Notes under the pieces: model-generated
The model's database searches: none
What the model was told of the DNA's origin: nothing
What the model saw: only the letters and a program-made list of their open reading frames with translations
Program-made: the position numbers and the translations under genes
In this document: positions 4,709 to 5,963 of the stretch, piece after piece
How positions within the stretch are numbered: position 1 is the stretch's first letter
How the letters are laid out: each line of letters opens with the position of its first letter
Assembly (NCBI GenBank): GCA_000997355.1
Contig: LCBS01000010.1
Span: forward strand, 1 to 35,634
Direction of reading: 5' to 3'
Length of the DNA stretch: 35,634 nucleotides
DNA from: a candidate division WWE3 bacterium GW2011_GWB1_41_6
GTDB lineage: Bacteria; Patescibacteriota; WWE3; UBA101185; UBA10185

Positions 4709-5963
4709 GTTATGAACGACAACACCCGCCGCTAACGCGAAGTTGTGTGTGTTTGGTACTTCTGCATCGTATACATCCATTTTCTCCGTTAACTTTTCGA
4801 TACGGACAACTTTGTGGTTAAAGTTTTTAACTGCTTCCTCCAGGTTTTCAAAATTGCCGAGAAAAAATCTGTTTCGGATCGTAGAGATTTTTATGATGCT
4901 CCTATCCCCTATTTTCTTTCTTTCCATATTATATATATCCTCCCTGATCTCCTTATACTCTTCGTAAATTGTTTTCATTAGCTTCAAAGACTTATTTAAA
5001 TATGTTTGGTTATAAGATTCCATCCTCTTTTTTCTAAATTCATCCGTCCATTGTTGCCTGGTATTTTCAGATCGCCACTTTAAAAGATTACTGTTTCTCC
5101 ACTGCTCTATTGAGAGGTTGGACAACATATCTCTCATATAGATATTTTCTTCAAAATATTTTTTGACTTTTTCCGACTGGTTTTTTCTGTTATTTTCATC
5201 GCTCCAGTACTTCTTTTGTTCTTTGTTTAGCTGTTTGTTGTTTTTATTGCGGTATTCTTCGTTCGATTTGTAGAACTCAAGGAACTTCTTAATCATATAA
5301 TCCTTGTACTCCTTACTCTCCCACTGTTTTTTCGCATTCTTGCTGAATATCTCTCTTTTTTCTAATGATTTTTCACGTGCTCGTTCTCTGTACTCTTGTG
5401 TCCTTTTGGCATTAATGGACTTTTCTTTAACATCCGATCTATGCAAGGTTTTTTCTATGTGCTCCGTGTGCAATTTCATATGCTCTTCACGAGTGAGTCT
5501 TATCAAATTAGTAGGATCGTTATTTCTCTTATTAAAGTCTATGTGGTGGCAGTTTGATCTTTTTATTTTCTTATATAAATTACTTCTGAGGTTGTACCGG
5601 TCGGAAATCATGTGTGTAAATATCCACTTTTGCGAATGCACATCCCACAACATCTCATAGCCATCTATTGTAATACCGGGATCGCCTTTCTTGGAGATCT
5701 TAGTATATAGAGGCATAAGGGAATCATTTATTGTTAGTTCAGATGCTTGCTTGTATTTACCATCCCTTATCAAGTGTGACTTTAATGACATTAACGTTTT
5801 TCTTTGTAATTCTTGCATTTATGAATCTTTCAACGCCTATTTTTCCATCACTTTTTATTGTATAGCAGAAATGTTCTTTACCCATCTGCTGCTCTTTGGC
5901 AATTTCTTCAAAAGTTACAGAACGTCCGTCAACTAATTTTATTGTCGTGCCGCCAAAAAAACA
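4709..5963 (-). other. Intein (HNH endonuclease type) at GyrB SAGG^SAKQG, frame-disrupted
   Basis: N-terminus [21 protein letters not shown] (block A); C-terminus DVYDAEVPNTHNFALAAGVVVHN followed by Ser+1 (blocks F/G); HNH motif CHHIDFNKRNNDPTNLIRLTREEHMKLH; length 1255 nt, not divisible by 3; no TxxH block B. Confidence 0.9.
5468..5551 (-). other. HNH homing endonuclease motif within the intein
   Basis: CHHIDFNKRNNDPTNLIRLTREEHMKLH. Confidence 0.85.

Follow-up and report, generated by a model that had tools for sequence, protein, structure and literature searches.

A GyrB intein without block B in a WWE3 genome assembly, probably an assembly error or an unfixed variant

The gyrB gene of the candidate division WWE3 bacterium GW2011_GWB1_41_6 is interrupted by an intein from which 44 nucleotides, encoding the splicing block B, are missing as assembled, so that no full-length precursor can be read from it in one frame. 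The gene lies in a stretch of 35,634 nucleotides of contig LCBS01000010.1, hereafter the window. The gap is the only lesion in an otherwise decay-free, single-copy and essential gene of a MAG of 54 contigs, which leads us to favor an assembly or consensus artefact, or an unfixed strain variant. The living population probably carries an intact intein, and the gap most likely does not represent a fixed trait of a lineage.

Re-measurement reproduced the intein boundaries, the length of 1,255 nt (1 mod 3) and the splice junctions given in the initial annotation, as well as the TAA stop codon after VTLDKGW and the 62-nt overlap between the two resulting ORFs (Table 1). The intein is inserted at the conserved Toprim site, EGDSAGG↓C...HN↓SAKQGR. 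It possesses the N-terminal nucleophile Cys1 (Block A) of class 1 inteins with the Hint fold, as well as Blocks F and G ending in HN before a Ser/Thr/Cys residue (DVYDAEVPNTHNFALAAGVVVHN↓S), a region matched by TIGR01443 above its cut-off. Neither frame encodes the TxxH motif of Block B where it would be expected, and the single open frame with the host protein is broken by the stop codon and by the length of 1 mod 3. ORF 2 reads on through the HNH part into the C-extein, and the HH and N residues of the HNH motif are invariant in alignment A2. The two ORFs do not resemble the genes of a natural split intein, which jointly hold all splicing blocks, because Block B resides in neither piece and the ORFs overlap.

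Table 1. Features of the interrupted gyrB locus (window positions).
Feature	Position	Strand	Basis
gyrB, intein-interrupted	7337-4097	minus	
N-extein: ATPase, transducer and Toprim start up to EGDSAGG	5964..7337	minus	Pfam HATPase_c, DNA_gyraseB
HNH-type intein at the GyrB EGDSAGG↓S(A/G)KxGR site, 1255 nt, frame-broken	4709..5963	minus	Splice junctions C1 and HN↓S
C-extein: Toprim remainder and GyrB C-terminal domain	4097..4708	minus	Pfam Toprim, DNA_gyraseB_C
ORF 1, 526 aa: N-extein and first intein part, TAA end	5757..7337	minus	
ORF 2, 573 aa: intein remainder and C-extein, internal ATG start	4097..5818	minus	
Deletion junction CTTGATAA: LDK in frame 1, L-I-R in frame 2	5767..5774	minus	Alignment to relatives
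HNH endonuclease motif HHIDFNKRNN...	5477..5548	minus	Pfam HNH_3, weak (E 3.5e-4, below curated cut-off)
Intein C-terminal splicing region, Blocks F and G, DVYDAEVPNTHNFALAAGVVVHN	4709..4780	minus	TIGR01443; alignment

We collected ten GyrB inteins inserted at the same site (L003-L007 and L032-L036) from 143 related genomes and the GTDB contig collection, and enlarged the set to 22 distinct intact inteins by a profile search of 380 genomes of the phylum and a scan of IMG/VR. The window intein shares the insertion site and 46-57% sequence identity with the ten aligned relatives, with homology extending over the whole intein. It thus belongs to an ordinary family of HNH-type GyrB inteins, which has a patchy distribution in ultra-small (Patescibacteria-like) bacteria. 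GyrB inteins of other ultra-small bacteria (for example, L006, L005, L033, L036 and L044) are like the window intein in insertion site, Cys1, HN↓S junction, HNH part and length outside the gap, but they contain the CTxxH motif of Block B and one open frame where the window intein is 44 nt short. Block B is retained in all 22 same-site inteins, so that the absence of TxxH here, as claimed earlier, is not a chance finding, and each of the 22 has a single open frame through the gap region with constant spacing across it. Intein-profile matches were found in 18 of the 380 phylum genomes, and a stop codon or broken frame occurred only in the genome of the window. Among structurally solved class 1 inteins, those of DnaE (e.g., 2keq and relatives) gave a profile match over the segment containing Block B (xATKDHKFM) and the C-terminal block; unlike the window intein, these constructs contain Block B and have no endonuclease domain.

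Two closely related members of bacterial type, the gyrB inteins L035 and L032, come from records whose titles name a Micrarchaeota archaeon and a Bacillota bacterium, possibly because of mis-binned contigs or transfer. The same intein type follows EGSSAGG and EGNSAGG in two IMG/VR contigs (L065 and L066), so that gyrB-like genes on putative viral contigs also carry the family.

In the relatives, the region corresponding to the gap reads L-[D-N-x-E-E-I-x-C-T-P-D-H-x-F-M]-(L/I)-R-D-G, and the 15-codon stretch has a constant length in all ten aligned sequences. Both of its flanks are present in the window intein and the stretch itself is absent. The L032 intein comprises 1,299 nt, exactly 44 nt more than the window intein, and the missing 44 nt correspond to the Block B segment (D-N-x-E-E-I-x-C-T-x-x-H-x-F-M in the relatives). 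The loss of Block B through a deletion of about 44 nt, proposed previously from the sequence arithmetic, is therefore supported by the alignment, which implies exactly 44 nt. The proposed origin, direct repeats of CTTGATAA, did not hold up, because the position at which the repeat requires Leu is Met in nine of the ten aligned relatives and Arg in the tenth. At the DNA level, the longest word shared at a distance of +44 was 1-5 nt in the 17 of 22 relatives used (the automatic register was wrong for the remaining five). The Met preceding Ile-Arg in the relatives makes ATG-ATA-AGG the likelier reading, which would share TGATAA with CTT-GAT-AA; this 6-nt overlap is our best guess for the shared word at the junction. 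The classical collapse of repeats requires repeats as long as the k-mer of the assembler. With 6-8 nt, the overlap would not suffice for a simple k-mer collapse; it suits a gap-closing join, a chimeric read or replication slippage.

Judged from the alignment, the intein shows no sign of decay outside the gap. Of the 84 residues shared by all ten relatives it retains 82, and in a leave-one-out comparison the intact members keep 93-98% of such residues, except for L006 (87%), in which a stretch of the endonuclease part is absent. The genome comprises 938 kb in 54 contigs and is 85.7% complete, with a single gyrB. The initial annotation had suggested looking for a second intact gyrB, but the MAG contains neither one nor any second type IIA B subunit or ParE; nor did we find a second gyrB allele or another intein in it. 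With open frames in gyrA, rpoB and rpoC, the genome shows no visible decay and should depend on gyrase. No other obviously broken gene in the window was apparent from its ORF list. A DNA search of 27 genomes of the family for other contigs of the same species gave only distant matches, and the exact junction-flank pattern had no match in IMG/VR.

The Thr and His residues of Block B assist the first splicing step (PMC10663303), and a TXXH to AXXA double mutation abolished trans-splicing by the Ssp DnaX intein (PMC3443213). A bulky residue at position -1 can make up for the loss of the Block B His alone, as found in an engineered Ssp DnaB intein (PMC6333167). The window intein has Gly at position -1 and has lost the entire Block B segment. 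From known intein chemistry, the N-terminal junction of the gene as written should not be activated, and with Block B required, Gly at -1 and the whole segment gone, the sequence should yield no full-length GyrB and no split pair capable of splicing.

We consider it probable that the population's intein is intact and splices in the usual class 1 way, and that the gap in the contig would have arisen where a short shared word, likely TGATAA, led to an erroneous join or consensus; alternatively, the contig may represent an unfixed variant molecule. The main reason is that a living cell with one gyrB is hard to reconcile with the sequence as written. Many frameshifts in assemblies have been found to be spurious, in a study that did not assess MAGs (PMC11017572). 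Against an artefact, the overlap of 6-8 nt is far below k-mer length, so that a gap-closing join or a chimeric read must be assumed, and the ORF list of the window shows no other obviously broken gene. Of the three readings offered by the initial annotation, the artefact and the strain variant are both still live, and the expression of two ORFs with non-canonical processing found no support, as detailed below.

A real and recent 44-nt deletion by replication slippage at short microhomology, carried by all or only part of the sampled strain's cells, is less probable. The short overlap at the junction is the trace expected from slippage and would be too short for simple k-mer collapse, and the lack of further decay would be expected if the event was very recent. 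Cells bearing the deletion would be devoid of GyrB, or would persist only briefly beside cells with the intact copy. Against slippage, the loss should be lethal with gyrB in single copy and no second type IIA B subunit found, and the MAG contains no second allele.

It is very improbable that both ORFs are translated and that GyrB functions as two pieces, or as pieces joined in trans without Block B. ORF 2 does remain open for 573 codons from an internal ATG at 5818, but this ATG has an unremarkable ribosome-binding context, with an anti-SD energy of -4.5 kcal/mol, near the 25th percentile for all same-strand ATGs, and none of the 22 relatives is split at the gap site. Split inteins with a tiny N-terminal piece, such as the S1 split of the Ssp DnaX intein (PMC3443213), likewise need two polypeptides; there, the Block B segment resides in the C-terminal piece and is required, whereas here it is in neither piece. 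Compensation of the Ssp DnaB type is an unlikely match for an intein with Gly at -1 and the whole segment gone. Slightly more doubtful still is a fixed deletion in a lineage whose gyrase is made from a pair of overlapping ORFs; a dead intein would then divide the Toprim domain, and its remnant would still cleave or associate. We regard as least credible a programmed +1 frameshift at CTT-GAT restoring the frame of the precursor: a step at ACA-C-TTG-ATA would join the frames as ...VTL-IRDGKY, but Block B would still be missing from the product, the site has no evident stall codon, and all relatives are read in one frame without a shift.

The intact inteins of the family are ordinary, and the broken copy is mainly a warning that gaps in essential single-copy genes of assembled genomes call for a check of the reads before biological interpretation. 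A gap that proved real and fixed would make this a type II topoisomerase in split form, and would allow one to ask whether inteins can function in the absence of Block B. Our literature search found no relevant paper on frameshifted gyrB inteins or on inteins in the gyrase of the candidate phyla radiation.

The MAG studied here is not alone in having a broken gyrB. A Parcubacteria MAG (L034, 348-3448) has an independent gap in gyrB, roughly 160 nt long and out of frame, which lies upstream of EGDSAGG and outside its intact intein. Short gyrB frames in five other phylum genomes were rejected as comparable breaks: four are truncated at contig ends and the fifth, in genome G107, encodes a GyrB without the ATPase part. 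This 530-residue protein (L064, 782-2374, minus strand), located in a contig interior, lacks roughly 180-200 residues at its N-terminus, and the 3.3-kb stretch examined (L060) showed no frame with an ATPase motif. Its gene adjoins an apparent gene for ribosomal protein L10.
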